This document shows, one piece after another, positions 24,101 to 63,300 of a stretch of DNA of 64,000 bases. The notes under the pieces were generated by a model. That model did no database searches. It saw only the letters and a list, made by a program, of their open reading frames with translations, and was not told the origin of the DNA. Location: positions 30,166,185-30,230,184 of the forward strand of contig NC_052471.1 of assembly GCF_009730915.1 (NCBI RefSeq), read 5' to 3'. Origin of the DNA: Dioscorea cayenensis subsp. rotundata (lineage: Eukaryota > Streptophyta > Magnoliopsida > Dioscoreales > Dioscoreaceae). Both the position numbers and the translations under genes were made by a program. How positions within the stretch are numbered: position 1 is the first letter of the stretch; every line of letters starts with the position of its first letter.

Positions 24101-25304
24101 GTCGAGGGCCAAATGGACCAGGAACTCTATGCAATCCTTGTGGGTTGAAGTGGTCACACACAGTAAACTTCTCAACTTATATTTGTCCTGTGATTAGTTA
24201 TTTATCATTATCGAACCTTCTTTATTTAGGGAAACCAACACAAACTGCAACTGGCTTGTATTTATTTGATCACATTCAGTTAATTGAATGCCATGTCGCA
24301 TCAACATTTAAAACATCAAGTGGGTTCCTAAAAGAATTCTTAGTAATGAGATGCATCCGTACAATTGCTCATAATTTTTATTTCTGTGTGATGCACATCC
24401 AACATGCTTGACTGCTGACAGTTAAACAATACAAGTTTGGATCGGACAAGTACCTTCAATTTGCTGCAATATTAGAAACAATGTGACGTGGTGCATCTCG
24501 GGCCATGCTATATCTGCTGTTTTTTCTTTCATTCATACCAACATGCCTTGTTTGCTCTTGTGGAGACTGCAGAACTGAGTAACTTCTGCCTTCTTTGGCA
24601 TGTTCACAGAGTTTTCATGTTTGCATATGTAATTTAGTGAATGTAGTTTATTATAGCCCAGTCATGCAATTAGATTGTTTTTATTCTGGGTTCTGTTTTT
24701 AATTTCCTTTTCCATATGTTGATTCTCATTCTTTTAGGTAACTTGCTGTCATTCCTCACCCATTTACTGCTTATATGCAGGGCATCCTAAGAATTCCTGC
24801 TCAGGTTCCATCTTCCATGAACAATGACCTCCAGGTTAACAAAGTTGAGCAGGTGAAAGTTCTTTAGAAAAATATAGCATAAGTAATTTAGTGAATATGG
24901 TTTATCATAGCCAAGGCATGTATTTAGATTGTGATTTTTTCCCGGGCTCTATTTCTAATTTCCTTTGCCACATATTGATGCTTATTCTCTCAAGGAACTG
25001 GACTTCATGCCTGCCACATTTACTGCTTATCTGCAGGGTATAGCTCAAATCCCTCCTGAGGTTTATCCATCCTCGGTGGACAAAGATCTCCAGGATAACA
25101 ACATTGACCAGGTGAAACTTTCTGTTAAAATGTAGCAGCAAAACTATAATTAATGAAGGTACATTCATTTTCTTCATTAGGTTAGATTGTTTAACCTGGT
25201 GCTCTTTTCAGATTGACAACAATGGCATCAGAGTTCCGGACTTGTCATGGGATGATCTCATAATTGAATCTGCTGAGACAGGGCAAGCTGGGAAAGAAAG
25301 CTAG
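21162..25304 (+). CDS. Divergent TIFY-CCT-GATA zinc finger transcription factor (ZML/GATA24-like)
   Basis: Eight exons, all phase-consistent: 21162-21377, 22816-22902, 22981-23120, 23783-23887, 24057-24162, 24781-24852, 25037-25111 and 25212-25304, giving 297 residues. An acidic N-terminus leads to a TIFY domain at about 53-86 (core ITFQG), a CCT domain at about 113-155 ([24 protein letters not shown]) and a GATA finger with C184, C187, C208 and C211, spaced C-x2-C-x20-C-x2-C as in plant TIFY GATAs ([16 protein letters not shown]). This order is that of the ZIM/ZML class, nuclear factors binding GATA-type sites. Oddities: the usual LCNACGL reads LCNPCGL, the post-finger GTLRDLSK reads GILRIPAQ, and the exon carrying it (exon 6) is followed by a tandem paralogous exon 7. 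DNA binding may be altered. Only two Cys pairs are seen, with no lesion. Confidence 0.88.
23097..23316 (+). repeat. Intronic duplication of the end of GATA exon 3
   Basis: The segment from about 23097 (AGTAGACAAGAGGCTGCTTC) through the donor and start of intron 3 recurs about 147 bp downstream from about 23244 (AGTTAGAAAAGAGGTTGCTTC), continuing through ATGCAGA, CCAAAxTGGTCxACTCAGGG and AGAATGTG. In the second copy the donor GGTATGC has become GGGCATGC, so it lacks the GT. Confidence 0.85.
24629..25137 (+). repeat. Tandem duplication of GATA exon 6 with its flanking introns
   Basis: Two units of about 254 bp, starting at 24629 and 24883 (both GTAATTTAGTGAAT). Each holds the upstream intron, the acceptor (TTTACTGCTTATxTGCAGGG), the exon (24781-24852 and 25037-25111) and the donor (CAGGTGAAA). 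Both exons are open, phase 0, with intact splice sites, and encode 24 and 25 residues ([10 protein letters not shown] and [10 protein letters not shown] starts). Confidence 0.92.
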
Positions 25305-25352
25305 ATCCACCAGTGCCAATAAGATAGAGTTTCCTGGTGAGGCATTTTTCCA

Positions 25353-26300
25353 TTTATACACCAGGTCATTGATGGTTCTTTATTCATAGGTTATGATTTC
25401 AACATTTGAGTTTAACTTGCATAATTTACAGTGTATAAATTCAATATCTGACTGATAGATGGGCGGGTTTCTGTATTTTCAATGATGGATGGCTTTATAT
25501 GTAAGATTATTTTAAAAAAAAAACTGATGTTAAAAAAGAAACAATTTCATCAAAATTCATGTTTATTGATCATTTTCTTTCATTAATCATCTCCATTAGA
25601 TCAACTAAATGTGGTGTTATGAGTCATCTATGATCTTGTGATTTTGACAAATCTTATGCTGGTCATGTACATGAAAATATCTTCAATACAAAGCTAGAAT
25701 AACAGAATCTTGGTGTTGGTTGCATAATCCCTCAAAAATGTGTAATATTGCTAATACACAACTGTGGTATATTTCAGTTTATACACCAAATCACTGACGG
25801 TTCTTTAATCATTGATTGTGATTTTAACATTAGATTTTAACTTGCCTCTCTTGCATCTAGTAAATACAGTATTCTGATCAATAGATGCACAGCTTTCTGC
25901 AGCTTCAGTGATGGATGGTTTTATATGTTGAGTATTCAAAAATATCCAGTGATTTTACAGACCATTTGATCATCATTAATATTCGACGATTAGTTTTCAT
26001 CAATCGTCTCAATTAAATTAGTGGATTCATATTCGATGATTATATTTCATCAATCCTTTCAAATAGATTAATGGGGTGTTTATTTGGATGTAGTTTATAA
26101 ATACAATAGATCTCAGGTTACAATATAGTTGCAAATCCAAAATTTTGTTTAATCCTGGATTGGACCGGAAGTCTGAAATACACAAACAAAATTGAATTTG
26201 GTATTGCAAACTTAACCTAGAGATTGAATACATGAGAATTTCTTCAATCCAAAACTAGAGAAAATAATCTTATAATTTCAAATTAATCATACATCTAAAC
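25353..26300. repeat. Two diverged copies of a 3'-flank segment (third copy near 32259)
   Basis: TTTATACACCAGGTCATTGA at 25353 recurs as TTTATACACCAAATCACTGA at 25778 (period about 425 bp). Following blocks correspond: GGTTCTTTA, TTAACTTGC, TTCAGTGATGGATGG/TTCAATGATGGATGG, CATCAATCGTCTCAATTA. The same blocks occur once at about 32259-32640, left of the related PPR gene. The second copy has extra sequence at about 26080-26225. Confidence 0.75.
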
Positions 26301-26804
26301 AGTAGAGAACATATATGAACTCATCTATGGATGAATATACATATTGTTGTGTATCTTATCAATTAAGTTTGTACAATGCATCTACTACTATGTTTTGAGT
26401 TTGAAGTCTGACCTCCATCTACACTGTTCTTCATAGATCCATCATGTATTAACAGATATTGCAGTATGTTAGCTCCCTCCAGTATAATGTGATCCAAGAG
26501 TTCTTTATACCCTAAACCATATTCCACAGAGATGATGAAGTGCTCCTGCAGGTGATTTAGAAATTAGACTGACGACCAAGATATAAGATGTGAAACAACA
26601 AATTCTCTGTAGGATTAGACAACAGAGAAGAAATAAGATGCAAAACATCTCCATACTGATGCAAATTTGAGATACCATGCATGAAAGGTCCAGTGATAAA
26701 TCATTTGAATTAAAGCATTTTGCCAAGAATAAAGCAGACCTCATGTATTTTCCATGCCTTGACAGTAACCATTACTACAGCATGCGCCTTGATCAATGAA
26801 CGGA

Positions 26805-28073
26805 AAAAGCAAAAATCTGGAACCCATCCTTGACTCGTAATCCATTTAAGCAGATTTAGTGTGTCCCTGAGTTATTCACCCGCTTATCAACCCATAAGCT
26901 AAGCGTCCGGCCGGCCCCCTTATCAACCCATAAGCTATGTTCCCGGCCTCTTCTGGTGAGAACCGGCCATCCAGCTAAAGAATTAACCTTCGGTGAAAAC
27001 CCACCATCTGTCCAGAGAACCAATGAAGAAACCAATAGCCTCCAAATATTTCCCTTGTCTATTGAAACAATCAACCGTCTAGAGAACTAACAAAGAAATC
27101 AATAGCCTCTGAATATTTCTCTTGTCAACTGAAACTATCAACCATCACACCGTCCGTCACACAATTAGAAGCTCACCAAATTGCCTTCCCAACCAAAAGT
27201 ATTGCATCGAAATGGTAAAAGTAACATCATTCGCAATAAACACCCTACGTTCAATTACAAATTTTGCATAGGAAAGCTTCCCAACTCCGCATAGCCTATG
27301 CATCTTGTAATAAAAGTCCACTAATTCGGATTGATGTGCTTGCTCATCATGCTACCTAGGAGTTTAAGCACCATAAAAGATTACCCATTCTTAAACAACT
27401 CACTCATGATTGTGTTATAATTCATAACATCCAAATCACACTCCATCCCATGGCTTCTTTACCAACAGGCGCTAAGCCTCCCAAAGCCTTGGAGCAATGA
27501 CAAAGGCAAATCAAAAACGCTCAAAGTCACAAAATTTGGATATAATTAACCCCTTCTCCAGTATAACTTCCAATCGTTCAAATGCTTTATCCGCACCACC
27601 ATTCTTACAAAGATCATTTACATAAATGCCGTCGAGTGATCACGGTTGGTTGCCCTCCCACGCTAACACTCTCCTCTAATATTCTCTCAGCATCATTTGA
27701 AATATCAAATCTTGCAGAGTGCTTCCATTAACACAATACAGGCCCAGTGTTTGGGGAACAACTGAAATTCCACATTGAATCCGCCAACCTTTTCGCCTTT
27801 AAGAGCATGAACAATCCACATATAAGAATGGACATTGGGCAGCATTGTTCATGAAGTGTGAGTTTGAGCTTGTAAGAATGGACATTGAGACAGCATTGTT
27901 CATGCAGCATAAGTTGGAGAACACCGATTGCTTCTCAGAGTCCTGTGCCAAAGCCTAGCAATCAGTTTCGAATTAGCAACCATATCAGGTTTGCACTAAG
28001 ACTAATATTTATCAAACGGTTTCAAATAACAATAGCACACCTTGATAAGAACATTGCAGGAGGCAACATGAGG
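26805..28073 (-). pseudogene. P-type PPR pseudogene (left copy of the segmental duplication)
   Basis: Decayed duplicate of the PPR gene at 33159-34716. Shared peptides remain in order on the minus strand: MLHEQCCLNVxSY against MLHEQCHLNVQTY, KAKRLADSMWNFSCSPNT against KAKRLVNSMRNFGCSPNT, and DGGFSPKV. Many frame breaks and small deletions separate them, and the longest open piece is about 70 codons. DNA similarity continues into the 3' flank (26390-26805 against 32690-33160). The 5' part, about 450 bp, is missing, and the homology stops at about 28073, just before a SINE. No product expected. Confidence 0.85.
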
Positions 28074-28085
28074 GGCCTATTCACC

Positions 28086-28286
28086 GATGACCAAGTGGTC
28101 TATTGGTAGCCGGGTCTCTATTAAAATCTTTCACAAGTGGTGAGAGTTCGAATCATAAGTGAGGATACATTTCTGAAAATGTGAGTAGTGGTTGTGTGTG
28201 GGGATGGTTTCAGCGCCTGTATGTGCACAGATCCTGTTCCTACTTACTTCGCCGAAATCTGTGCACGACCTTAGGAGAAAAAAAAA
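28086..28286 (+). mobile_element. tRNA-derived SINE
   Basis: A Pol III-like box A (TGACCAAGTGGT, 28088-28099) is followed about 45 bp later by box B (GAGTTCGAATC, 28144-28154). The 3' part has a perfect 10-bp stem, GTGCACAGAT at 28223-28232 pairing with ATCTGTGCAC at 28257-28266, and the element ends in a short A run at 28278-28286. Flanking GGGCC on both sides could be a short target-site duplication, but that is weak. A related scrap may lie at 50500-50600. Confidence 0.7.
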
Positions 28287-28406
28287 GGGCCAAGATAAGA
28301 CCATCGTCAAGATTCCATGTGTCCTTTGTAACTTCACCATCTGATATTGCTACTAAAAAAGATGTTCCAGAATTCCCAGGGCCTTTGAAGGAAAAACTTG
28401 CCACAT

Positions 28407-30332
28407 TCACCAAAAATCAGAACAAGAGCAGAGACCAGCCTTGAAGCAATGGAAGCGATTCCGGTCCCTGATGATGATCTCTCTCTCAAAGATGGAAGCA
28501 CAAAGCTTCATGGCAGAGTGACAGTCAGAGCAAATCCTTATATTCTTCACAATGCGCAGTGTTACACCAGGCTTTGTGCTCATCAGGCCTAGTGCCAATG
28601 CCAGCCTCTCACTGTGAACCAACAGAGCCTGTTCACGCTCCTCTCTCTCATCTCCATTCTCCATGTAGTTATCAGCAACTCTGGAGTTTTGAGAAGCTGC
28701 ATCAATGGTGTACCCAGCCAGCTTCAGCCTACGTACTATTTCAACCAGCATGGTGTAAATCTCTGTAGTTTGAGGGTGTGTTTTATCACCTGCAGTGAAC
28801 CAGTGCACAATGCCATTGATCTCAATGAAGCTCATTCCAGGAGTCTTCTGAATCCCTCTGTTCTTCACTACCATCCGGAGATCATCGGCCTCAGTGTGTC
28901 TCTGGGAAGCTGCGAACATGTTGGACAGCAGGACATGGTACTCCGTGTTATCTGGGTATAATTGAACAAGCTCTTGCATCAGCTTTCTTCCCAATTCTAG
29001 CTTCCCATGCAAAGCACAAGAGGCTAACAGTGAGCCAAGCACTACTTCATTGGGTTGCATGGGCATTGCCCTGACGAGAGATTCAGCTTCATCTACACAC
29101 CCTGCCCTGCCTAAGAGATCAACCATGCAAGCAAAATGTTCTATTTTTGGTGTTATCTTATAAATCGAGCCGAGTTCTTGAAACATGTTGCGACCTTCTT
29201 CCACTAAGCCTGAGCGACTGCATGCACTGAGAACACTCACCATGGTTATATCATCTGGCTGCTCTTCACCTTCAGTGACCATCCTGGTGAACAAGTGCAG
29301 CACTCGGAGACCCATGCCCTGCATCGACAGACCACTCAGCATTGCATTCCAGGACACTACGTTTCTCTCCGCCATTCTTTCAAACAGAGTGAGTGCATTG
29401 TCTACTCTTCCGCATTTCCCATACATATCTATCAAAGCAGTGTTCACTTTGAGAAGATGGTCCTTATAATTATCAGCAAAGCTTGTTGCTTTGATGAAAT
29501 GGGTGTGGAGCCAGCGACCGACGGTGAGGTCTCCAGCCTGCGAGCATGCCGAGAGGAGCGAGCACATACTAACATGGTTGAGCCACCTCAAGTGAACACC
29601 ATCAAACAACAACTCACCTAGCAAACTGAGAGCATCTCTGGGACGTCCTGCTTCGATGCAAGCCGAGATCATCACCGTCCAGGCGACGTCATTCCTCTGA
29701 GGCATTCTATCAAACACCTCCTGCCCACTTCTCAAACCCTCCCACCGAAGCGCGCCAGTGAGGATGATTGTCCAGGAGACAATCGTAGGTTCCTTCATCT
29801 CTTTGAAAAGCTTCCAGGCTTCATCCATTCTGCTTGACTTGGCGTACATATCCATCGCGGCATTGCATGACGCGGCGGTGAATGGGAGGCCGAGCTTGAA
29901 GAAGAGAAGGTGCGCCGCATAGCCAGAGAAGTTGTCAGACAAGCGCGCAGAGGCCGAGAGGAGCGCAATGAGGGTGACCTCGTCTGGTGAAGCCCCAGCA
30001 CGAAGCATGGAGCGGAAGAAGAGGATAGCGCGGGAAGGAAGAGCATGTCGAATGTGGCACGAGATCAGCGCTGTCCAGTCAGGCGTGAATCGCGCTACAA
30101 CCGGTATCTCCTCGAACGCCCGGAGCGCCGAGGCCGGAGGACCAAGGGCGGCGTACATGTGAAACAAGGCACTGGAGATGTTCGATGAAATGCTTGAAAG
30201 AAAGAAAAGTCCATTCTTAACAAGCGCGGCGTGAAGCTGGTAACCGTGTGGCGGAGGAGTGTCGCCGAGCGAGCATGATCGGAGAAGCGGACGGCAACAA
30301 CGAGCCAGAGAATCGAAGAAGGCATCTCCCAT
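28407..30332 (-). CDS. DYW-type pentatricopeptide repeat protein (At5g15340-like)
   Basis: Intronless and fully open, 641 residues. PLS-type PPR repeats fill about 50-490 (for example CNAAMDMYAKSSRMDEAWKLF, VNTALIDMYGKCGRVDNA, MVDLLGRAGCVDEAESLV). E and E+ regions follow (NEVVLGSLLASCALHGK, GMSFIEINGIVHWFTAGD), then a DYW deaminase domain with the HSE motif (LVHSERLALALGL), the CxxC in NIRICSDCHSAMK and the final CSCSDFW, so the last triplet is DFW instead of DYW. Members of this family act in mitochondria or plastids, usually in C-to-U editing of specific sites. Repeat order and the WEGLRSGQEVFDRMPQRN block match Arabidopsis At5g15340 as recalled. The left half of a duplicated block holds this intact copy. 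Only an N-terminal stump remains in the right half (34823-34950). Confidence 0.94.
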   Translation of the reverse strand: MGDAFFDSLARCCRPLLRSCSLGDTPPPHGYQLHAALVKNGLFFLSSISSNISSALFHMYAALGPPASALRAFEEIPVVARFTPDWTALISCHIRHALPSRAILFFRSMLRAGASPDEVTLIALLSASARLSDNFSGYAAHLLFFKLGLPFTAASCNAAMDMYAKSSRMDEAWKLFKEMKEPTIVSWTIILTGALRWEGLRSGQEVFDRMPQRNDVAWTVMISACIEAGRPRDALSLLGELLFDGVHLRWLNHVSMCSLLSACSQAGDLTVGRWLHTHFIKATSFADNYKDHLLKVNTALIDMYGKCGRVDNALTLFERMAERNVVSWNAMLSGLSMQGMGLRVLHLFTRMVTEGEEQPDDITMVSVLSACSRSGLVEEGRNMFQELGSIYKITPKIEHFACMVDLLGRAGCVDEAESLVRAMPMQPNEVVLGSLLASCALHGKLELGRKLMQELVQLYPDNTEYHVLLSNMFAASQRHTEADDLRMVVKNRGIQKTPGMSFIEINGIVHWFTAGDKTHPQTTEIYTMLVEIVRRLKLAGYTIDAASQNSRVADNYMENGDEREEREQALLVHSERLALALGLMSTKPGVTLRIVKNIRICSDCHSAMKLCASIFEREIIIRDRNRFHCFKAGLCSCSDFW

Positions 30333-31080
30333 GAATTTTTCTCGTAAGCTGATGGTGCAGTGGTACTTTTTACCCGCATCTTAATTTCTATCCTTAATTT
30401 TTATCGACTTTAAAGTCTAAACGTGATAGAATAACATTATGCATGGTTTCAGTAACGTGAAAGAATCCACTAATTTTACCCTTTTTATTATTATTATTAT
30501 TATTATTTTTTTAAGAAAAAGGTGATAAACACCATAATTTCATAAACGTGCACGTGTGAGGAACAAGATAAAATTAAAATTTGAAACCGGCTTTTGTGAT
30601 CAGATGGATTTACATTCATAGTCATTAAAACTTTATTAAAACTTGAAACTAGTTGAAAGTCTTCTTTTTATTTCCCTTGTCATTGACGTCCTATTTATTA
30701 GCCTTTCTTTTTTTTGTTTTTTAGATACTGTTCTATGTGAAACTTCCCCAAGTATAGTAGATCACTTGATTGCCCATATATCATAATCACAAATTTAAAG
30801 TACCTTAATAAACATTAATAGTGTTAAAATCGTAAAAATTTGTCTGTCATATGATTTTGTCACATGATTTTAAATATAATTTTATTTGATTTTTATGATT
30901 AAATTTTTTTAATAGAATTTTAAGAGAAAATTATTTTATATCATATAAATTAGTTTTTAAATAAAATAATAATTTTATCTTTTTCAAATAAAGAAAAGTT
31001 AATTCCATTTACGATTTTTTTTATATCGATGGAGAAATAACATAGTTAAAAAAAAAAAAAAAATTTGCAGAGTATTTATT
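30333..31080. other. AT-rich gap between the DYW gene and the kinase remnant
   Basis: Holds the promoter side of the DYW gene, an ATT run near 30485-30510 and, at about 30505-30545, AAAAAGGTGATAAACACCAT, which resembles the LINE-tail motif GTGGATAAACCAC. No remnant of the plus-strand PPR gene that occupies the equivalent place in the right copy (35096-37308) was seen. Confidence 0.5.
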
Positions 31081-31745
31081 TTGTAATTTTTTTTAATTTC
31101 CCAAAAACCATGAAGCGCATAGAAAGCAGTATTCAGGTGCCGCTGGTGCACATCTTTTCGCAAAGATTTCAATGGATTAACAAAGGCCATAAACGATGAG
31201 CTGAAGACAACGGACAACAACTCCTCTCCAGTTTCTGAAAGAACAACTACAAAAATCATCCGTCTCAGGGATGCTCTCAATGCTCTGAAGAATGATAATT
31301 AATCCTATTTGGCCAACATGAGAAATATCAAATAAGAAAGAAACAAGTATAACTGTTAAACTGACATGGAATTGTGCTACAATGAACAACTTCACTGGTG
31401 TCAGTTAAGAGTCCAGATCCCACTGCAGGCATTCTTTAGGCAGGTGAGCTGACTCTGCAACAATTAGCTGACTATCTCATAACAGAGATTTTTGCCTGCA
31501 AAGTCAAGAAAATATATCAACTCTTGATCTATCCCGGAGTGATGACAATGAATGTGTCTGTAGAATCTAAATGCTTACTCATTTTACAAAGCTCTCATCA
31601 GCCTTAGATGATCTTGGATTGGTTGCCCGGCAAAGCTCCTTCTTCACTTCCCCACCAGAGGAGACAGTGTAAAAACACTGCCGGAGAGGGGACTGCATTA
31701 GAGCACCACAGATACAATTATACAAATGTTTGCCATCACTATTTC
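31081..31745 (-). pseudogene. NCRK-like receptor kinase remnant (left copy)
   Basis: Aligns by eye, with the same order, to the 3' part of the kinase gene at 37955-40871. The last-exon region (31120-31290 against 38100-38290), the conserved AGTCCAGATCCCACTGCAGGCATTCT at 31410-31436 against 38469-38494, TTTGCCTGCAAA, then TACAAAGCTCTCATCAG and GGTTGCCCGGC against GGTTGCCGACCGG. It then jumps to AGCTCCTTCTTCACTTCCC, matching 39759-39777. About 1 kb of kinase exons and introns is thus absent, and the rest has many small indels. No product expected. Confidence 0.75.
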
Positions 31746-33158
31746 AGACACAAGAATTTATACTGAGACCTGTGAATTAGACAATCTGGCAACAATCAAA
31801 TGGAAGAGCTACAGATGTTATTCAAAACAAAAATAAGACCAGAAAGCAGCAGAAATTTCAAATTTGCCTTGAGAGAAATCAAACAGAACTTGTGGAAGAT
31901 TATTTATTCTCAACACATGCATGAAAGGCAACCAATAGATGATATATTTTTAGTTGTAGCCTTAATAGCATTTGCTTAATGAATGAAACTATCATAATCA
32001 ATTTTCTCCATCTCAGTGTTCACCATCTATCACCCTTTTACTAGTAATAGGGCCTATATGTGGAACCTGAAAGAACCATTTCTAACAATAAGCAACCAAA
32101 TCAGCCATAATTATTCTCTTTTCTGTCTAAAATGACAATTGAGAAAATAAGTTGTTTTGAAGTTGGTATATGTTGTAGTATCAGATTCTGAACTGCAAAA
32201 GGTAAGTCTGAGGATAAATAGTTGCTGATTCACTTTGGCATCGCAACCAGATATATGCTTGTTCATACAAAAGGTCACTGATGGTTATTTATTCCTAATG
32301 ATTTTAACAATTGAACTTACATCCTTTGCAGTGTGTAAAGGTCTTATATGTAGGTTATTTCAAAAAACCTGGCAATGTTACAAACCATATGGTCAAAATT
32401 CATATTTGGTGATTAGTATTCATCAATCATCTCAATTCAATCAATAGCATTTGGTGTTGCAACTCATCTAGAGACAGAACATCATTATGATCCTGTGATT
32501 TTGACAAATAGTAGGCTGGCCATATACATGAGAACATCTTCAATATAAAATTTGATTAAAAAAAAAACCTTATAATTGCAAGGTAATCACACAGCTAAAC
32601 AATAAAAAACATACGAACTCATCTATTGAAGCATCCATTCGTAATTTTTTGTTGCTTAGCAATTATGTTCACACAATGCATTGGCTAGCATATTTTGAGT
32701 TTGAAGCCTGACCTCCATCAATACTGTTCTCCATAGATCCCTCATGTATTAGCAAATATCGGGGGTATGTTATCTTTAGTAAAATCTGATCCAAGATTTC
32801 CTTAAGCCCTCAACCCATTCCACACAGAGATGATTAAGAGTTCCTGCAGGTGCCTCTGTAATTAGATTAGAATACCCAAACATAAAATGCAAAATAAGTT
32901 CATGTGGATGCAAATTTTCTGTGTAGAAATAGTGTGTGCCCTGAACAAATGTGTTCATCCAGTGCATGAGTAGTTAAAACTGGGAAAAAAGGAAGACACA
33001 ATGAATATTACCTTTCACACCCTCATATTCTCCCAAGTGGGTAGAACAACCTCGAGATTGCAGGCATGAAACGTCCAGCGATAAATCATTTGAATCGAAG
33101 CATTTTGTCAAGAATAAAACAGACCACATGTATTTCCATGCCTAGACAGTAACCTTTC
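31746..33158. other. Gap between the kinase remnant and the right PPR copy
   Basis: No gene seen. From about 32259 the sequence is the right-hand copy of the block at 25353-26805 (shared TTTGAGTTTGAAGxCTGACCTCCATC at 26394 and 32693, and a shared 3' flank of the PPR gene). The segment 31746-32258 shows nothing recognisable. Confidence 0.55.
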
Positions 33159-34716
33159 CTACATAATGCCTTGATCAATGAATGGAAAATGCAAAAATCC
33201 AGAACCCATCCCTTCACCTGCAATCCATTCAAGCAGATTTAGTGTGTCACAGAGTTTTCCGCCCCTTATCAATCCATAAGTTAAGCGCGCGGCCACCTTT
33301 GGTGAGAATCCACCATCTAGAGAACTAACAAAGTAAACTATAGCATCTGAATATTTCCCTTGTCTGCAGAAACAATCAACCATAACATTGTAGGTTACAG
33401 CATTTGGTTGAATTCCCTCAACTTGCATCTTAGCAAACAAAAGCTGAACTTCACCCAAATTGCCTTCCCAGCAAAAGTATTGCATCAGAATGGTATATGT
33501 AACAACATTAGCAACAAACACTCTCCTTTCAATTACAAATTTTGCTTCCCAGATCTTCCCAGCTCTGCATAAGCTATGTATCACAATGGTAAAGGTCCAG
33601 ATGTTTGGGTCAATGCCCTTCTTCATCATGTCACCTAGGAGTTTAAGCACCGCGGATGACTTCTCGCTCTTACAAAGGCCACTCATAACTGTGTTGTAAT
33701 TCACAACATTGACATCCCACTCCAACTCAAGGCTTCTCCCCAACAGGAGCTCAGCCTCCCAAACCTTGGAGCAATGGCAAAGGCAATCAAGAAGGATGTT
33801 CAAAGTCACAGAATTTGGATTTAATCCCTTCTCTAGCATTGCTTCCAATTGTTCAAATGCTTTATCTGCATCACCATTCTTACAAAGACCATTCATATAA
33901 ATGCTGTAAGTGATCACGTCTGGTTTCCATCCCATGCTCGTACTCTCCTCCAATATTTTCTCAACATCACTGAAATATCCTACCTTGCAGAGTCCTTCAA
34001 TCAACACGTTATAGGTCACAGTGTTTGGGGAGCAGCCAAAATTCCTCATTGAATTCACTAACCTCTTCGCCTTTATGATTCTTCCATTGGAACAGTAAGC
34101 TCGAACAATCGGCGTGTAAGTCTGGACATTAAGGTGGCATTGTTCATGCAGCATAAGTTTGAGGACACCAATAGCTTCCCGGATTCTTTCCAGCTTGACA
34201 AAGCCCAGCAATCAGTGTGGAATAAGCAACCACATCAGGCTTGCAACCAAGCCTCACCATCCACTGAAGAACCAAACAAGCTTTATTAAACTGCTTCAAA
34301 TAACAAGAGTACATTTTTACAAGAACAGTGCAAGAAGCAACATCAGGAATCAATCCCGACGAGACCATATCCTTGAAAACAGCCTCAGCTTCCTCAAATC
34401 GTCGGGCAACCACCAAGCTATCAATGGCAGTGGTGTAACATGGTACATCAAGCTCGAAGTTTGATTGCCGCATTTCGTCAAGCAGGCGGAGGACATCATC
34501 AGGTTGGCCTGCCCGAGCAAAAGCTTTCATCAGTTTGTTGTATTCGAACGGGTGAGGATGCCGTGGTCTGGCGCCAATCTCCAAACAAGAAGAAAAAGAA
34601 GAAGAGCAGCTCCTCTGAAAGAAATGCTTCACGACCTCAGCGAACTTCGTAAATTTGGTCGTCATGGAGGTCGCAATAACTCCTCCGCCAGCACAAACCT
34701 TGGATAGGAAATACAA
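33159..34716 (-). CDS. P-type pentatricopeptide repeat protein (right copy), one frameshift
   Basis: Intronless RNA-binding PPR protein, likely organellar. 34716 to about 34190 encodes an N-terminus and the first repeats (FEYNKLMKAFARAGQPDDVL, DVASCTVLVKMYS, PDVVAYSTLIAGLCQAG). The following repeats continue in another frame from about 34187 to 33159 (NVQTYTPIVRAYCSNGRI, NTVTYNVLIEGLCKVG, PDVITYSIYMNGLCKNGDADKA, NAVTYNVMVDCFCRQGKYSDA), in all about 515-525 residues of canonical 35-residue P motifs. The break is one extra A in an A run at 34187-34189 (GCTGGAAAGAATC). Otherwise the gene is clean, so a sequencing error or a very young lesion is likely. The left copy at 26805-28073 is a clear pseudogene. 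The downstream ORF alone (about 350 codons) contains most repeats. No orthologue recognised. Confidence 0.8.
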
Positions 34717-34822
34717 ACAAATGGACGATTCTCAGGGACAACCGAGCAAAACAGGAGATTGGAGAACCAGGGCATAAGAAAGGAGAAGGGCCGCAGTTCA
34801 TGGAGATGGCCACCATTGCTCT

Positions 34823-34950
34823 CCAACGCACTCGAGATGTTCGATGAAATGCCCGAGAGAAATACAATGCCAGTCTCGATGGGCGTCGCAGCATCGAGCT
34901 CGTGGCCGTGCGCGCATGATCGAAGAACCGGACAACACTTTGCCAAGCCT
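34823..34950 (-). pseudogene. N-terminal stump of a DYW PPR gene (right copy)
   Basis: GAGATGTTCGATGAAATGC is shared by 34832 and 30177, and the minus-strand peptides CCPVLRSC and GISSNISSAL match CCRPLLRSC and SISSNISSAL of the DYW gene at 28407-30332. The rest of the gene (about 1.8 kb) is gone, and the stump abuts the start of the P-type PPR gene. Confidence 0.85.
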
Positions 34951-34979
34951 GCGAATTTGATTTTTAAATTTTCACATCT

Positions 34980-35055
34980 TCATCGGGTTTAGACCCGAAA
35001 CCCGAACCCATTTAGTTATCGGGTTTAGATCCGATACCCGAGACCATTCTCAAAA
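34980..35055. repeat. Two copies of a CGGGTTTAGAYCCGA hairpin motif in a divergent promoter
   Basis: ATCGGGTTTAGACCCGAAAC and ATCGGGTTTAGATCCGATAC follow each other about 34 bp apart. Each can form a TCGGGT-loop-ACCCGA stem. They lie between two divergently transcribed PPR genes. Confidence 0.8.
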
Positions 35056-35095
35056 CCCTGGTTACGACCTCCATTTCAAACCCAAACCCCCAACA

Positions 35096-37308
35096 ATGGC
35101 GTCCATCGCCTCCTCCGCCGGCAAAACCCTAGCTTTCCTCAAGACGTTGAACTCTAGAAACCCTAATCCTTTCCCTTCTCTTCTCCTCCGTGTCCATGGC
35201 TTCTCTTCCGAATCCTCGCCCGAGAGCTCCGCTGATCCGGATCAAGAGCCGCAGAAGCCAATCCGGCCGATGCGCGGAGAAGCGGAGAAGCTCGACGAGA
35301 CGATATGCTACATGATGGCCCAGCGACCATGGACGACCCGCCTCCAGAACTCCATTCGGAATCTCGTCCCCAACTTCAACCAAGCCCTCGTGCTCGGCGT
35401 CCTCCGCCGCGCGCGCCACCCGGACCACGCCCTCCGCTTCTTCCGATGGGTCGAGAAGACAGGCTTCCGCCACGATCGCGATACCTATCTTGAGATCATC
35501 TCTATCCTTTCTCGCAACCTTATGCTCAACCACGCCCGCTGCATCCTCATCGACGACATGCCCAAGCGCGAGGTGGATCGCGAAGAGGACATGTTTATCG
35601 AGCTCATTCAAGGCTACGGCCGCGAGGGGATCCCTCAGGAAGTCGTCAAGCTCTTTCAGAAGATGCCTGAATTCGGGGTCGTGCGCACTTCCCAGATCTT
35701 ATGATGCCTTCTTCAAGGCCATTCTCCGGCGAGGCCGGGTGATGATGGCCAAAAGGTTCTTCAATGCCATGATTCGTGATGGCGTTGCTCCCACATTGTC
35801 GACCTATAACACTCTTTTGTGGGGGTTTTCTCTGTGCATGAAGATGGATACTGCAAACAGGTTCTTTGAAGACATGAAAATGCGAGGCATTGTGCCTGAC
35901 ATTGTCACCTATAACATGCTGCTGAATGGTTGGGTGAGAGCTAAGAAGGTTGATGATGCTGAGAAAGTGTTTGCAGAAATGAGTAGCACTGATTCAGGTC
36001 CAAATTCAATCTCTTACAATCTTATGATCAAGGGGTATGTCTCTGCGGATAGGGTAGATGATGGTTTGCGTTTGTTTGGAGAGATGCGGGAGAAAGGGAT
36101 CAGAGCTACTGAGAAGACTTATGCGGCGCTAATGCCGGGCCTTTGTGATGATACAGATAGAACAGGGGAGGCCCGGAAGGTTATGGATGAGATGGTAGAG
36201 CGAAGAATGACACCAAAGGACAAATCAATATTTTTGAGGATGATTTCTAGCATGTGCAGATCACAGGACTTGGATGGGGCAATGGCAGTGCACCAGGCAA
36301 TGGGCCGGTTCCGTGATGTTGCCGTTGATTTGTCTCATTATGGTGTTCTGATTGAAGGGCTTTGCAATGGGAAGAAGTATGATAAGGCTGTGGAGATACT
36401 TGATGAACTTCTGGGAAAGGGGATGCTGTTGAATCCCCAGAGCGCAGTTATTGAGCCCTCCGCATATAATCCGATGATTGAGTATTTATGTGGCAATGGC
36501 TTAACGTCTAAAGCTGAAGAGTTCTTTAGGTTGCTGATGAAGAAAGGGATTGATGATAAGGTTGCATTCAATCATTTGATACGTGGGCATGCAAAGGAAG
36601 AGAAGCCGGAGTCTGCTTTTGAGCTCCTTAACATCATGAACCGCCGTGGAATTGCATCTGATGCTGATGCATATACCTTGCTTGTGGAGAGCTACTTGAA
36701 GAAGAGGGAACCGGCCGATGCAAGGACAGTATTAGATGGTATGATTGAACAGGGCCATTTGCCCAGCTCATCTTTGTTCCGGTCTGTGATGGTGGCTCTG
36801 TTTGACGATGGTCGTGTTCAGACTGCTAGTCGGGTGATGAAGAGCATGATAGATAAGGGGGTGAAGGAGAAACATGGACGTTGTGCATAAGATTCTTGAA
36901 GCTTTGTTTATGCGGGGCCATGTTGAGGAAGCCCTTGGGCGCATTAATCTGCTGTTATTGAATAGCTGTGCTCCTGATTTCGACAGCCTCGTGGTTTCTC
37001 TCTGCGAGAGCAGTAAAGCCATTGAGGCTCTCAAGCTGGTGGACTTTGGATTAGAGAGGGACTGTGACATCAGTTTCTCGAGCTTTGATTGTTTGTTAGA
37101 TGTACTCTATTCTGCTGAAAAGGTACTACCTGCATACTCAATTCTGTGCAAGATCAAAGCGAAAGGAGGTGTGGTGGATAAAAAAGGGTGTGAGGCTTTG
37201 ATTGAGAGCCTGGTTGCAGGAGGGCACACAAAGCAAGCAGACATTCTCTCCAGGACATTGGCAGGAAAGAACCCTTTGGATGTAAAAAGGGTAAGAAAAT
37301 TGCTGTAG
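35096..37308 (+). CDS. Pentatricopeptide repeat protein, At2g37230-like, two frameshifts
   Basis: Intronless P-type PPR gene of about 736 codons, probably mitochondrial or plastid targeted (Ser/Arg/Leu-rich N-terminus MASIASSAGKTLAFLKTLNS). Three open pieces run in order: 35096-35690 (LVPNFNQALVLGVLRRARHP, FFRWVEKTGFRHDRDT), about 35693-36870 (SYDAFFKAILRRGRVMMAKR, NSISYNLMIKGYVSADRVDD, FRSVMVALFDDGRVQTASRV) and 36872-37308 (MDVVHKILEALFMRGHVEEA, LVDFGLERDCDISFSSFD). The order and wording match Arabidopsis At2g37230 as recalled. Two one-base surpluses break it: CCC at 35691-35693 and AAA at 36870-36872. Each is the same kind of change in a short homopolymer, with intact conserved sequence on both sides, so assembly error is the first suspect. 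It sits only in the right half of the segmental duplication. First ATG of the open frame taken as start. Confidence 0.88.
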
Positions 37309-37954
37309 ATGCCTAATGAAGTGTCATGCATTATCCATTCTTGATGGGTTTCACCATTTTTGTTATGTTGTATCACCCTTTTTTTATCGAATGTTAGCCG
37401 GAATGCCAAATAAGGCAAATGCAGGTTCTTTACCTGTTATGTTTGATCCTGAGTAGACCATTGATGATGATGGTTTGTTTGTTCATTTTGATACTTGTTT
37501 ATCAATGGCTTTTGATCAGCTTAGGGGAAAAAACATTGTTGTTTGTTCATCGTCATGGTTTCACTTCCATGAGAGAATTCACTTTGAAATTTCTGTTACA
37601 TTTACTCTGATAAGTGAAGACATCTCATTCTTTTGTTGTGTTTGTCTTTCTTTTCAAATATTGTTTTATGTGAAATTCCTGAATTAGATCTCTTGGAACA
37701 ATATGATATATATCAGTCACAAAGCTAACTGACCTTGTAGAACAACAATATATTTCAGATTAGCAGGAGAGAAATAGGATCACAATGAATAGTGACCATT
37801 TAAGTGGAACTTCATATGATCAAATAGAATCAAGCCTTAACATTTCTTTCTTCCATCCCTTCTGTTTCCTTCTGTGCCTATAAGGAAAAAAATAAAATAA
37901 AATAAAACATATATACAAGCAGACTTCAGGCTGCTTCTGGTGATGTTCTTTTCA
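37309..37954. other. Convergent 3' flanks of the PPR gene (+) and the kinase gene (-)
   Basis: T-rich to A-rich sequence between two stop codons, expected to hold both 3' UTRs. An AAAAT-type run lies near 37887-37910. No gene was seen. Confidence 0.55.
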
Positions 37955-40871
37955 TCAAAGTGACCGAATATTTGACGACACAAATGATTCAAAACGGGGT
38001 TCGGTTAGGTCAACTGTTCCATCATCGGAGGCCCTTCCGCTATGGTTTCCCTTTGATGTCAAGAATATTAGTCTCTCCATGTATTCAGCTGATAGTATCA
38101 TTTCTGCATTGTTCTGTGGAGCCTTGCAAATATATCTATCAACTGCCAGAGGCCATGAGCTCCGCGCGTTCCATCTCACTGAAGACGGACAACTCCTTTC
38201 CATGTTCCCAAGGGAACCACCGTCAATTCTATCTGATTCAGGAATGCTCTTGATACTCTGGGATGAAGATGATGAACCCTGTTTGGCCTGAATGAGAAGC
38301 AGTCAAATAAGAAACAAACGTATGTAACAGTTAAACTAACTTCGGCTGCAGAAAAATCGCATGAAGCTGTGCTACCATGAATAAACTTGCAGGCAAGGTT
38401 CTCCTCTTGGTTTTATCAGGCGAAATTATGGAGAGTATTTGAACAATTTCACTCATCGTTGGTCGAGAGTCCGGATCCCATTGCAGGCATTCTCTAGCTA
38501 AATGAGCCATAATTTGCATTTCCTCTTCTGGGAACTTACCTCTCAGAACAGGGTCAGGCAGCTCTGAAACAACCAGCGTACTATCTCGCAACCTAGCCTT
38601 TGCCTGCAAACTCATGAAAGCTTTTCATTCTCTGAATCTTGTTCTAGAGTGACTGGCACTAAATGAAATTGTTGCATTTGGATGCTTACCCACATTACAA
38701 GGCTTTCATGGGTCTTGTTAGATGATTTCTGTATAGGTTGCCGACCGGTAATCAACTCCAGAACCACCACACCGAAACTGAAAACATCTGATTTTAGTGT
38801 AGCCTTTCCCACGATAGCGTACTCAGGGGCAAAATATCCGAAAGTCCCTAACATTCTCGCTGGAGAGTTCGTGCAACTTGTGATATCATCAGCCATTAGC
38901 CGTTTGGCCATACCGAGATCAGTTATCTGCATATCAAAAAAGAAACTAACCAAGTCAAATGTTTGATTCAATCTTCATGACTGATCGGTTATCCACTGAG
39001 TAATAAACTAGAATAGGTTATTAAGTATGAAAGAAGTTAAGCGATAACTCATGGTTCAACCTTAGCTCTGTACTTGTCATCTAAAAGAATGTTGGTGGAC
39101 TTGATGTCTCGATGCAATATCCTTGGAGCAGCTGCTTCATGAAGATATTCCAAGCCTTTTGCAGCTCCGATGGCAATCGCAACACGGGTTTCCCAGTCTA
39201 TGGGTTCCTTTCCTTTTGCGTCCAGGCAATCACGCAAATTACCATTCGCTAAATACTCAAAAACTAGCAGCTTCACAGATTGTCTTCCTTGGGACTCTAA
39301 GCAGTATCCGAGCAAAGGTACTACATGACAGTGGTTTAGTCTTGCTAGCATTTCAATCTAAGATATGAAAGGAAAAACAATAATCCTTATGTCAGAAGAG
39401 CATGCAGATGAATCAAGATAAAATTCATGAATACAGTTAGAAGATTTTGATTTAAATCGAATCGACTATGATACTGCTATCAGCATCATTAACACCTTAA
39501 AAATGAGCAAAAATGTTTGTCTAATTAGTAATTATTGCTCTCAAAATGGCTAAAACTAATAATACCTCAGCCAGAAAGTCATTGTCTTCTTGCCCTGCAG
39601 GCGGCTTTAGTTTCTTAACAGCAATAGCTCTTCCATTTCTAAGTTTGCCATAGTATACATCGCTGCTTGCCCCGCATCCTATGAGATTATCATTTGAAAA
39701 TTTATTGGTCGCTTGATCTAATTCCACATAAGAAAATTGCGTGATTGTGCCTGGTATAGCTCCTTTTTCACTTCCCAACCATGACGGCCAGCGGAAAAGA
39801 CCTGCTGCGGGAGATCAGAATACAAGTTTTTATTAAATATCTTACTATTAGTATCTGTTCAAGAAAACTATAAGAGATGCACATTGATATAATCTTACCA
39901 ATGATTGGGCTCTTGACAGGAAACCCTTGGAATGAACCAGACTGATCACTCATCAAGTTAATCCTACTGTTCCAACTTGTTTCCTTGTCAGATAATGTTG
40001 TAATTGTTTGGACAGAGAGCTTGTCCTTCTTATAGCAGTAGCATGCTGCAGAAGCAAAAACTGCAATCGTTGTGAGCAAGCCGCAGAGTAGGAGGACGGC
40101 TATAACGGCTTTGTTAGAGAAAGGCTTCTTTGCAGCTGTCGATGATTCTAGCATGTCTGTCATCACCACATAGGATACAAAATTAACTCAACATCACTAG
40201 AGTTGCTCCATTAATATAATACACTATATCCTGAGAGGATTTAAGAATATACCAGATGTGCAATTGCAAGCAGAAAAACAACCGGCGTCTTTGATGTAGC
40301 CTGGAGTCTTGGGAGATGAACCTTCAGACGAGCACGAACAATTCCATCTTTCTCCATCTGTCAACATATATGATCATAATTCGATGTAAAATGACAGAAT
40401 GCTCATTGAGGATTTCATGATTTAATGGACAACAAATATAAATACTTCTTCATTAGTACATCAGCTTGACATGTGAATTAAAAATAATTTAAAGGAAAAT
40501 AATCAACAATGTTGCCATACCAAGGACACAATCACAAGATGTAGAACAATTGATCGTGGGAGTGTAATTCTGCGGTTCTAGAGGATTGGGGTCGCATATA
40601 CATGCCCATCTGAGTCTTCCGAACTCATCTAAAAGAATTTCAATGGAAAATGAAATCAGTGAATTGTACTCCTTGACATTTCAATAAAGTGATCCAATTG
40701 CAATCTATCGCAGCCTTTTATGTTTGATATATATATATATATATTGTGTATGATCAGCAGTCTGTCGCACAATTGAGATATTTTTGAGTACTAACCGCAT
40801 GATATTGATCGAAACCAGAACGATGCAAAGACGAAACCGAGAGTGATTTTCCAATTTAGCTCCATCAGCAT
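37955..40871 (-). CDS. NCRK: Receptor-like Ser/Thr kinase, NCRK type
   Basis: Nine exons: 40871-40796, 40628-40521, 40357-40253, 40156-39899, 39801-39566, 39357-39061, 38926-38690, 38603-38376 and 38287-37955, all phase-consistent, 625 residues. There is a signal peptide (about 1-24), a small Cys-rich ectodomain (about 25-97, CSTSCDC and CFSACNC motifs) and a membrane segment at about 113-137. The kinase domain has a glycine loop (GCGASSDVY), K245 (AVKK), HRD at 343-345 (LHRDIKSTN), DLG in place of DFG (ITDLGMAK) and APE (YFAPEY), so catalytic residues are present. Cys pattern, juxtamembrane DKETSWNS and kinase wording match Arabidopsis NCRK, a plasma-membrane/endosomal RLCK-like kinase reported to bind ROP GTPases. 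The acceptor of exon 5 is a NAGNAG. The C-terminal 110 residues are Ser-rich and longer than in Arabidopsis. An eroded 3' copy lies at 31081-31745. Confidence 0.92.
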
Positions 40872-57569: not shown

Positions 57570-59814
<2,245 letters not shown>

Positions 59815-60070
59815 AGATGAACTGAGAGTAAATGAAATAACACAACTGTGATGAGGTGGTGATCAAGAGCTAGCTAGCTATAACTAGTTGTTTTGATGAT
59901 CGGTGATGAAGAGCATAGAGTTGTTAAATAGATGCTTGAGATTGTTGGGTTGCTGGGGATATGATGCAAGATGAAGGAAATTGTCTCATGAATTAAGCCC
60001 GCATGAATTATACATGGGTTGGTGAAGAACCAACCGGTCCAAAAACGAGTGTAGTGTGGTTGGTGGTGGT
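59815..60070 (-). promoter_or_regulatory. PAL promoter with three AC-II elements
   Basis: A TATA-like TATTTAA (minus strand) lies at 59924-59930. The R2R3-MYB binding core ACCAACC (AC-II) occurs three times within 48 bp: minus strand at 60017-60023, plus strand at 60029-60035 and minus strand at 60058-60064. AC elements are the known MYB targets of phenylpropanoid promoters. Confidence 0.75.
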
Positions 60071-60387: not shown

Positions 60388-63300
60388 GAAAAGCGGATAA
60401 AAACCACAAGCATTAAGAGTAAAACGGTCAACCCTAGACACGTAAAAAATCCAGACTACCCCACAGATGAAAGAGCAAGAGAAGACACAGAAAAAAGCCG
60501 CAAGATGTGGTCCCAACAACAACCACTGGACTCAAAAAGCATCCTGAGGAGGAGTCCTCTAGGGAGAACCTCATCTAGCCAAAACTAAATCGCGCCAGAG
60601 TTCGGTAGGCCCCGTGGGGACGCTGGGTCGTCCAAAGGAGAGAAAAATCAAGGCTACGGCTTGACCTTCGCCATGACGCTCTCCAATTTTGCCTTCTTTT
60701 CGATCAAATGCAGATAACTCGTAGAAAGAAGCATATGTTCAATCTTAATAATAATAATAGACAGCTTGTACAATAAGTAGATCTGAAAATCGCGGCATTT
60801 CGCTCAGCCCAAATATTCCAAAGTGGATACCTAGCAATCAAATCCTAGAGGAAAAATAAGAGGTTTTTATTTGCTTTTTCCTCCAAGCACCCCATTGGTC
60901 GCTAGTGACGTAGGGACCTCCTCAAAATCCGTGTCGGCTATTCCAAAATGTGTGAAACCAATCGACATTGGACAAGGAGGTGATCACTCGATTCAACGTT
61001 AGCGTGACATAAAACACATGTGATCGAGGGATAATGGTTACATCTCACGCACTGAGATTTTCCAAAGTTAAGATTTTGTTTGCACGAGCCAGCCAGTTGA
61101 ACAGATTGATTTTCTTGGGACAGAGCCCTTTAAGGATTGTCAATGTAAATCCGCATCTTAACCCCGCCATCGCTCGTAAAATTGTAGAATGATTTGACAA
61201 AGTGAAACTCCCCGATTAGCGTAGTAAGTTTCCGGGTTGACATCATCCTTTGCCCAAAACGTGAGTTGAATTAATCTGGGCAACCATCTCCCGGGCCACA
61301 GAAAAATCCTCCAACAGGATAGGGAAGTCGCCTTCCAAAGAAGATCCTTAATAGTGCATTCCTTGAATAGTGCACCCCTCGAAAAAGATTTGGCCAGATA
61401 TCCGCCGGTGCACACCCCTCCACCCAGCTATCAAGCCAAAAAAGAGTAAATGCACCATCACGAATGATAGGAGTAAGATTTTTGCGGAAGGCCGGCAAGA
61501 CATGGGAGAATACCATTCGGGAAGAAAGAATCTCTTGTACAGGTGCTTGTGGAAAAGATTCCAAGAGGGAAAAATTCCTAAAAATAGTTTGCCTCGAAAA
61601 CTAATTCTCCACACCACTACCGACCATTTATGATTTTTCCACCACCATTTACTAAGCAAGGCATTGTTGAAGGGTGGTAAGATCTTTAGAACACCCCAAC
61701 CACCATGCTCAGCGAGATTTGCAGAGCCTCGACCACCCTACTAGTGTCATTTTGGATTGTTGTGCATCCGGTCCAGACCAGAGGAAATCTCTACGAATTT
61801 TGTCGATACAACTGATCACCCATCAGGGTAATTTAAAAATCGACATCCAGTAAGTTGGAATAGCGGAGAGCACTGAATTGAGCAGGGTAAGTCGCCCCCC
61901 AAGAGAAAGTAATTTGGATTTCCAAGTTGCAAGCCTACTTCGAATTTTGGCAATCGTAGCATCCCATCTCGCCTTCTTGGTCGACCCCTCAGAGATAGGA
62001 ACTCCCAAGTAGACCAATGACAAAAATATCGGTGATACAGGCAAGATGCTTGCCAAGTGGGGCGTGGGGCTCAGCTTTTCTTTGGGAGGAATACAAGCAA
62101 GTTTTGTTGAAATTCACTTTGAGCCCGAAAGCCCCTCAAATAAGAATAGAATCAGCTTAATGATGCGAAGATCTTCTTTTCCCCCAGTTGTCATTACAAG
62201 TAGGTCATCAACGAATTGGAGATGACACATCTTTTCCCCACTATCGCCAAATGCAACCCCGTGAAGGATCCCAGAGCGTAGGGCATTATTGAACATTGTG
62301 CTTAGCACATCCATTACCAGAACAAATAGCAATGGCGATAGTGGATTCCCCTGACGAAGACCCCTGCGGTAGCGAACATATCCACATTGAGTTCCGTTAA
62401 TAAGGAAAGAAGCCTTGGAACTCATTAGGATCGTATGTATCCACCCTATCCATTTTTCACTAAACCCTCGTGCACGAAGTAAATCCAGGAGAAAGGTCCA
62501 GTCAACAGTGTCGAAGGCTTTGAAAAAATCCACTTTTAAAATCAAGCCCTGAAGCCTATGTTTTTGCATGTGGAAGATGAGTTCTTGGGCTGTGGCAATA
62601 TTGTCAATAATACAACGACCTTTAGTGAATGCTGACTGTGTCGAATCAATTAATTCCCCAATCTTTTTGACACAATCTTCAGGGTCGAATTGATAAGGTT
62701 GATAGGAAGATATTGGGACGGATTATCAGGAGAATGACATTTGGGAATTAGAGTAATGTTGGCCCAGTTAATTCTTTCCATATTAGCGTTCCCAAAGTAA
62801 AAATCTTCACAAAGCTTGAAGATGTCAAACTTAACAATATCCCAACACTTCTGAAAGAATAAGATGGGAAAACCATCCGGTCCATGGGCTTTATCTGCAC
62901 TCATGCCAAAGACAACAATCCTAATTTCCTCCTGAGAGAAAGGAACGTCTAACGCCGTGAGGTCATGATGAAACTTTTGTCCAAGAAGGCTAGCCCAGTC
63001 CAGGCAGATGCGCTGCTCTTAAGTAGAACCAAAGAGGTTTTTGTAAAAGGAGGTAAAGGAGGCTCCAATCCTTTTTCAGTATCCTCCACTCTTTGGTTAT
63101 CATGCCAAACCCCGGGATGAAATTTCTAGTCCTCACGACCATTGCCACCGAGTGAAAAACCAAGATTTTTGTCCCCTTCTTTGAGCCAAGATATTCGCGC
63201 CCTTTGTTTCCAATATATCTCTTCTTCTTTGAGGATCGAAAACATTTCCACTTTGATCGCATTGTCTTTCCCTCGTTCCTCATCCGTAAGGGGCCTTAAT

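Follow-up and report, generated by a model that had tools for sequence, protein, structure and literature searches.

Two described processes come closest to the locus reported here. In the account of animal mitochondrial genomes given in the pertinent parts of PMC5745709, tandem duplication-random loss (DRL or TDRL) begins with a tandem copy of several genes, after which one copy per gene is inactivated, remnants persist and a change of gene order is expected. Fractionation of the maize genome after tetraploidy, in those sections of PMC2893956 that describe it, consists of complementary loss of duplicate genes through deletions, the flanked exon deletions measuring 5-178 bp and carrying direct repeats in 10 of 16 cases. 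Here we analyse a 64,000-nucleotide stretch of Dioscorea cayenensis subsp. rotundata (NC_052471.1, positions 30,166,185 to 30,230,184; the window), in which two neighbouring blocks carry versions of the same genes: a P-type PPR gene, a PPR-DYW gene and a kinase that is putatively NCRK-like. One tandem duplication followed by complementary decay is probably the best explanation overall, and the locus is best classed as a nuclear case of tandem duplication-random loss.

Self-comparison of the window yields ordered, same-strand matches between 25.3-31.7 kb and 32.2-39.8 kb that fall on one plus-strand diagonal. We call the two blocks L (left, 26228-31687) and R (right, 32524-39814), with positions counted within the window. 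The P-type PPR and its 3′ flank match at L 26228-28073 and R 32524-34347 (minus strand, E 0.0 by self-BLAST; the R flank proper, 32524-33158 on the minus strand, is collinear with L 26228-26912), and the N terminus of the DYW gene at L 30165-30248 and R 34824-34910. Further right, the kinase 3′ flank matches at L 30685-30820 and R 37619-37750, within a wider minus-strand piece (L 30615-30904, collinear with R 37546-37825) whose score none of 500 shuffles reaches, and the kinase pieces, introns included, match at L 31217-31687 and R 38189-39814. Judged by these alignments, the similarity of the blocks is far beyond chance. A retrocopy origin of L and R is rejected because introns, and intergenic DNA as well, align between them. 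An initial annotation, made from the letters alone, had described the same series in both blocks, all on the minus strand, as the product of a single event. The single plus-strand diagonal is what such an event predicts, and the collinear P-type PPR, DYW and kinase genes do lie on the minus strand, but R also contains a PPR gene on the plus strand.

Divergence between the blocks is uniform. Kimura two-parameter (K2P) distances are 0.277 for the proximal 3′ flank (433 sites), 0.294 for PPR third positions (378 sites), 0.319 for the DYW stump in R (177 sites), 0.370 for the kinase 3′ flank (260 sites) and 0.21-0.37 across six short kinase pieces. Four groups, the flank, the third positions of the PPR, the DYW stump and the kinase region, show no significant difference in per-site divergence (χ2 1.53, 3 degrees of freedom, p 0.67; the flank here combines the proximal piece, which by itself gives the same value at 100 of 433 sites, with a distal piece related to a repeat), nor do twelve L-R segments (χ2 15.0, 11 degrees of freedom, p 0.18). 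The gene pairs thus diverge to a similar degree, as the single event of the initial annotation predicts; collinear diagonal and similar divergence together are those of a contiguous, multi-gene tandem duplication. In the figures that PMC9010478 gives for related yams, the delta whole-genome duplication of Dioscorea alata has a median synonymous divergence (Ks) of 0.869 and an age of 64 million years, and median Ks is 0.163 between D. alata and D. dumetorum and 0.389 between D. alata and D. zingiberensis. Scaled to the delta value, the L-R distance of 0.28 is estimated to correspond to roughly 20 million years, a comparison that sets noncoding K2P against coding Ks. Since the L-R divergence of about 0.28 falls between the two interspecies values listed there, the duplication should exist in the D. 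alata-D. dumetorum group and not in D. zingiberensis.

The two minus-strand PPR genes have each kept one copy, in opposite blocks. L holds an intact PPR-DYW gene (28407-30332, minus strand) of 641 open codons, with the PPR tract, E, E+ and DYW domain of a PPR-DYW protein (Pfam matches: DYW_deaminase 3.8e-32, E_motif 2e-11, E+ 1.6e-07). In R the body of this gene is deleted, and a minus-strand N-terminal stump at 34770-34956, whose score is reached by none of 500 shuffles, retains roughly the first 50 codons (34955-34824); by eye, the start codon of L has no counterpart there. Both assignments, intact in L and a stump in R, had been made correctly in the initial annotation, as had the death of the L copy of the P-type PPR. 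The latter lacks its N-terminal part, homology stopping at 28073 where R runs on to an ATG at 34665; 6 of its 368 aligned codons are nonsense codons, and of the 32 length differences between the copies 24 shift the reading frame, one or more of them through a change in R. The R copy (33104-34665, minus strand) consists of long frames interrupted by two single-base frameshifts. Its pieced frame contains no nonsense codon, against a neutral expectation of 7.0 (P(0) = 0.001 in 1000 simulations of 483 codons, with the branch set at half the L-R distance), which argues for past selection on this copy. It had been called nearly intact over 33159-34716, and its long frames free of nonsense codons agree with that, but the frameshifts and the start at 34665 do not. 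From its sequence, the conclusion is sound that the R copy was retained at least until recently and that its frame as assembled is broken. On the same grounds, complementary loss is secure for the DYW gene (kept in L, lost from R) and for the P-type PPR (kept in R, lost from L). Across the genome searched (584.2 Mb, 2249 contigs) there is no close further copy of the PPR-DYW gene (next best 39% amino-acid identity among the 69 of 1095 candidates scored) or of the P-type PPR (45-50%, among 119 of 1211).

The kinase is a different case. Its R copy (37955-40871, minus strand) is intact, in agreement with the initial annotation: nine exons form a complete frame of 626 codons including the stop, the model contains by eye a signal peptide, a cysteine-rich ectodomain and a membrane segment, and two exon pieces give Pfam kinase matches. 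L carries a minus-strand fragment (31113-31687) made up of parts of exons I, H, G and E with two introns; exons A-D and F are absent, E and G are mostly gone, H is incomplete, and homology stops at the acceptor of intron D/E. This fragment had been read as the remnant of a lost gene (31081-31745), in a scheme where the whole kinase was duplicated at full length, reciprocal loss was symmetrical and the 5′ half of the L kinase was deleted later. That scheme draws on other deletions within the L kinase and on a faint similarity that runs on into intron D/E (its score is attained in 11 of 500 shuffles). Exons A-D, however, have no significant trace in L, where smaller dead pieces of exons E, G, H and I can still be made out. 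The resemblance to the kinase 5′ region is no greater than chance would give (49, where the best of 40 shuffles scores 59), and further scores from this region are reached by 154 of 500, 80 of 200 and 31 of 200 shuffles. Nor is the boundary recent, its flank being already present in copies on contigs C10, C13 and C11; tblastn of the C11 stretch listed no exon D, no separate search for exon D having been made. We consider a full-length duplication possible but doubtful. The L fragment itself is real. From its structure it was probably cut by the duplication breakpoint and truncated at birth, so that its loss is questionable and the kinase becomes weak evidence for reciprocal loss.

The sequence at the L/R junction (31690-32252) has no significant homology to kinase exons A-D or the left flank, with nothing above shuffles against the kinase 5′ region or that flank. 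Its part 31720-31924 has copies on C10 and C13, 31690-31770 is present in the C11 copy, and from 32107 onward it is part of a sequence copied at C11:17.2M. The dead L kinase fragment with its flank (31308-31924) is found inside repeats at C10:11.667M and C13:5.172M, which are 87-90% alike over about 3.6 kb, and in a related stretch at C11:16.418M. Because non-kinase sequence beside the fragment already occurs in these diverged copies, the junction is not recent. The pattern would fit capture of part of the left block by a mobile element. The C13 piece is nearer to L (88%) than to R (79%) where both are comparable, and L is the likelier donor because its kinase fragment extends past the piece found in the repeats. 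The R 3′ flank, at 32107-33086, has one further copy at C11:17198387-17200826, about 83-93% identical with an interruption of about 1.4 kb. The left edge is occupied by a dispersed repeat (24630-25984) that has tandem units within it and pieces at nine further loci (for example on C20, C5, C12 and C11), most of them 86-98% identical and one 77%. It explains the similarity of the outermost flanks, and for this reason the match of 25353-26072 to 32252-32564 is not evidence for a tandem copy. The 3′ flank from 25353 to about 26072, which the initial annotation had counted in the copied series, is not diagnostic and was set aside, and the diagnostic diagonal starts at 26228/32524.

Such repeats could suggest that the similarity was assembled piecemeal, from repeats and from gene fragments captured by mobile elements, with no single duplication. 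The left edge is indeed a dispersed repeat, pieces of the L kinase do sit in the C10 and C13 repeats and the C11 stretch, and 32107-33086 is copied at C11:17.2M. Yet these repeats do not include the PPR gene, the DYW stump or most of kinase exon I, all of which are collinear and similarly diverged, and the longer kinase fragment of L makes it the likelier donor; we regard this origin as quite improbable. Unequal crossing-over between flanking repeats is a possible way for the duplication to have arisen, given the related repeats at 24630-25984 and 32107-32564, but self-BLAST (E 1e-8) listed no such repeat to the right of the R kinase and nothing further supports it. L and R might also be partners from a whole-genome duplication made adjacent by rearrangement, which would make their collinearity and complementary loss true fractionation. 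A different locus fills that role. On C22, a 0.5-Mb contig, 424100-483500 holds PAL, RING, kinase and GATA genes in the order of the window, and three exon matches of this second kinase have 79, 75 and 54% identity (among the 70 of 1568 candidates scored). Over 323 codons of exons E-H, Ks between the R and C22 kinases is 0.93, a value near the delta median cited above for D. alata. Gene order and Ks are those expected if the C22 locus is the whole-genome-duplication partner of the window. L and R are three times closer to each other than to C22, and the tandem copy (about 0.28) is younger than the whole-genome duplication. L also groups with R and not with C22: at 696 sites aligned with the C22 kinase, an alignment that is partly noise because unrelated stretches are forced together, L and R agree against C22 at 132, L and C22 against R at 54, and R and C22 against L at 175, and when the L fragment is run separately in BLAST, exon H alone convincingly matches C22, with L matching R in exons and introns. 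Gene order, Ks and this grouping lead us to reject L and R as whole-genome-duplication partners, a notion we find barely credible. Fractionation in tandem, the phrase of the initial annotation, is a fair analogy for the complementary loss; it does not describe the relationship of the blocks, whose whole-genome partner on C22 is much older.

The history we favour, a single direct tandem duplication with subsequent loss, would have run as follows. A contiguous segment between the GATA factor gene and the kinase promoter would have been copied, comprising the PPR 3′ flank, the P-type PPR, the PPR-DYW gene, probably the plus-strand PPR and the 3′ part of the kinase. Its right end would lie in or near kinase intron D/E, so that the L kinase would from the start have been without promoter, signal peptide and membrane segment, and the R kinase would have stayed whole. 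Large deletions would then have struck different genes in each block. In L the 5′ end of the P-type PPR would have been deleted and the rest would have decayed, and the stretch that held the plus-strand PPR would have disappeared; in R the DYW body would have gone, leaving its first 50 or so codons just upstream of the P-type PPR. Each surviving good copy would from then on be indispensable. If losses are independent and one copy of each gene must stay, simple arithmetic gives mixed retention a chance of 0.75 for three genes and 0.5 for two, so the reciprocity needs no special cause. The statement that the blocks together keep one good copy of each gene accordingly applies to the DYW gene in L and, until recently at least, to the P-type PPR in R, but is doubtful for the kinase. 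Should the ancestral order have been P-type PPR, DYW, plus-strand PPR, kinase, tandem duplication and random loss would have turned it into a working order of DYW, P-type PPR, plus-strand PPR, kinase.

The plus-strand P-type PPR gene of R (35096-37308), overlooked in the initial annotation, has two single-base frameshifts and no close further copy in the genome (next best 36% amino-acid identity among the 104 of 1123 candidates scored). No counterpart was found in L in the roughly 300 bases at the corresponding position (30314-30614); when L 30249-30690 is compared with R 34900-37620, the strongest match is the end of DYW. L 30442-30476 shows a short match to sequence on the 3′ side of the gene (38 against a maximum of 37 in 40 shuffles), which was not accepted as homology. 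Either L has lost the gene or R has gained it by insertion. By eye, the four frameshifts in this gene and in the R P-type PPR sit in short single-base runs. The PAL gene of the window (57666-59862) has about ten frame changes at small indels, again by eye, and its pieces are close to plant PAL entries in the PDB; in the large exon of the C22 PAL copy about one frame change is seen. Frameshifts in the R P-type PPR, the plus-strand PPR and PAL look like uneven indel errors of the assembly, or the frame breaks may reflect recent pseudogene formation. Beyond PAL, 61274-63018 contains open frames that by eye resemble a degraded LINE-type reverse transcriptase.

Several observations weigh against the proposed history. 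The R P-type PPR is not open as assembled, owing to its two frameshifts, and the plus-strand PPR may have entered R later by insertion. A 133-base stretch by the PPR stop, excluded from the χ2 tests, is less diverged (0.131). The deletion junction in the L kinase has no significant direct repeat, 48% of random pairs scoring as high; deletion mediated by a direct repeat, suggestive by eye, was dropped after this control. Finally, only 2,561 bases separate kinase and GATA on C22, and none of the three PPR genes is recognisable between them (the best match is 26 residues of DYW, E 0.006), so the ancestral order is not seen there. A PPR-type match of 29% lies beyond GATA at 461.5 kb. Either C22 has lost DYW, P-type PPR and plus-strand PPR, or these genes postdate the whole-genome duplication there.

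The R DYW stump begins about 290 bases upstream of the R P-type PPR start, and the arrangement with the plus-strand PPR is divergent. PPR genes act on organelle RNA, and tentatively this may be a nuclear locus midway through tandem duplication-random loss, in which two organelle-RNA genes have been swapped and the P-type PPR has been given the former DYW promoter region. Gene-order changes between related plants are usually ascribed to inversion, transposition or loss after polyploidy. A datable tandem block in which both sets of remnants are readable offers another route to such changes, step by step; were the order swap and promoter exchange true and general, nuclear microsynteny would be broken and promoters exchanged in an inconspicuous way, traceless once the remnants fade. 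The process itself is ordinary and caught midway, and its value lies in the readable intermediate state and the predicted DYW/P-type PPR swap. Among the papers listed by our searches on fractionation and duplication-random loss, mitochondrial and polyploidy studies included, no nuclear plant case of the latter stood out to us, and one may exist in print.

Beyond the complementary loss through deletions shared with maize fractionation (as covered in PMC2893956), L and R differ from it in not being a whole-genome-duplication pair, in deletions that reach kilobases and in the lack of a significant direct repeat at the one junction tested. The Dioscorea delta whole-genome duplication, as characterised in the relevant part of PMC9010478, is older than the tandem copy, and the C22 locus fits it as the homoeologous partner of the window. 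Loss of one copy per gene, the pattern of mitochondrial tandem duplication-random loss, is seen in full for the DYW gene; the R P-type PPR is retained but frameshifted, the kinase was probably truncated at birth and the plus-strand PPR is present only in R. Measured against the animal mitochondrial examples in the account of PMC5745709, the yam locus shares the multi-gene tandem copy with persisting remnants and an expected change of order, and is set apart by its place on a nuclear plant chromosome, by an end gene that was probably truncated, by an ancestral order that we infer and by what would be slow loss, over some 20 million years.

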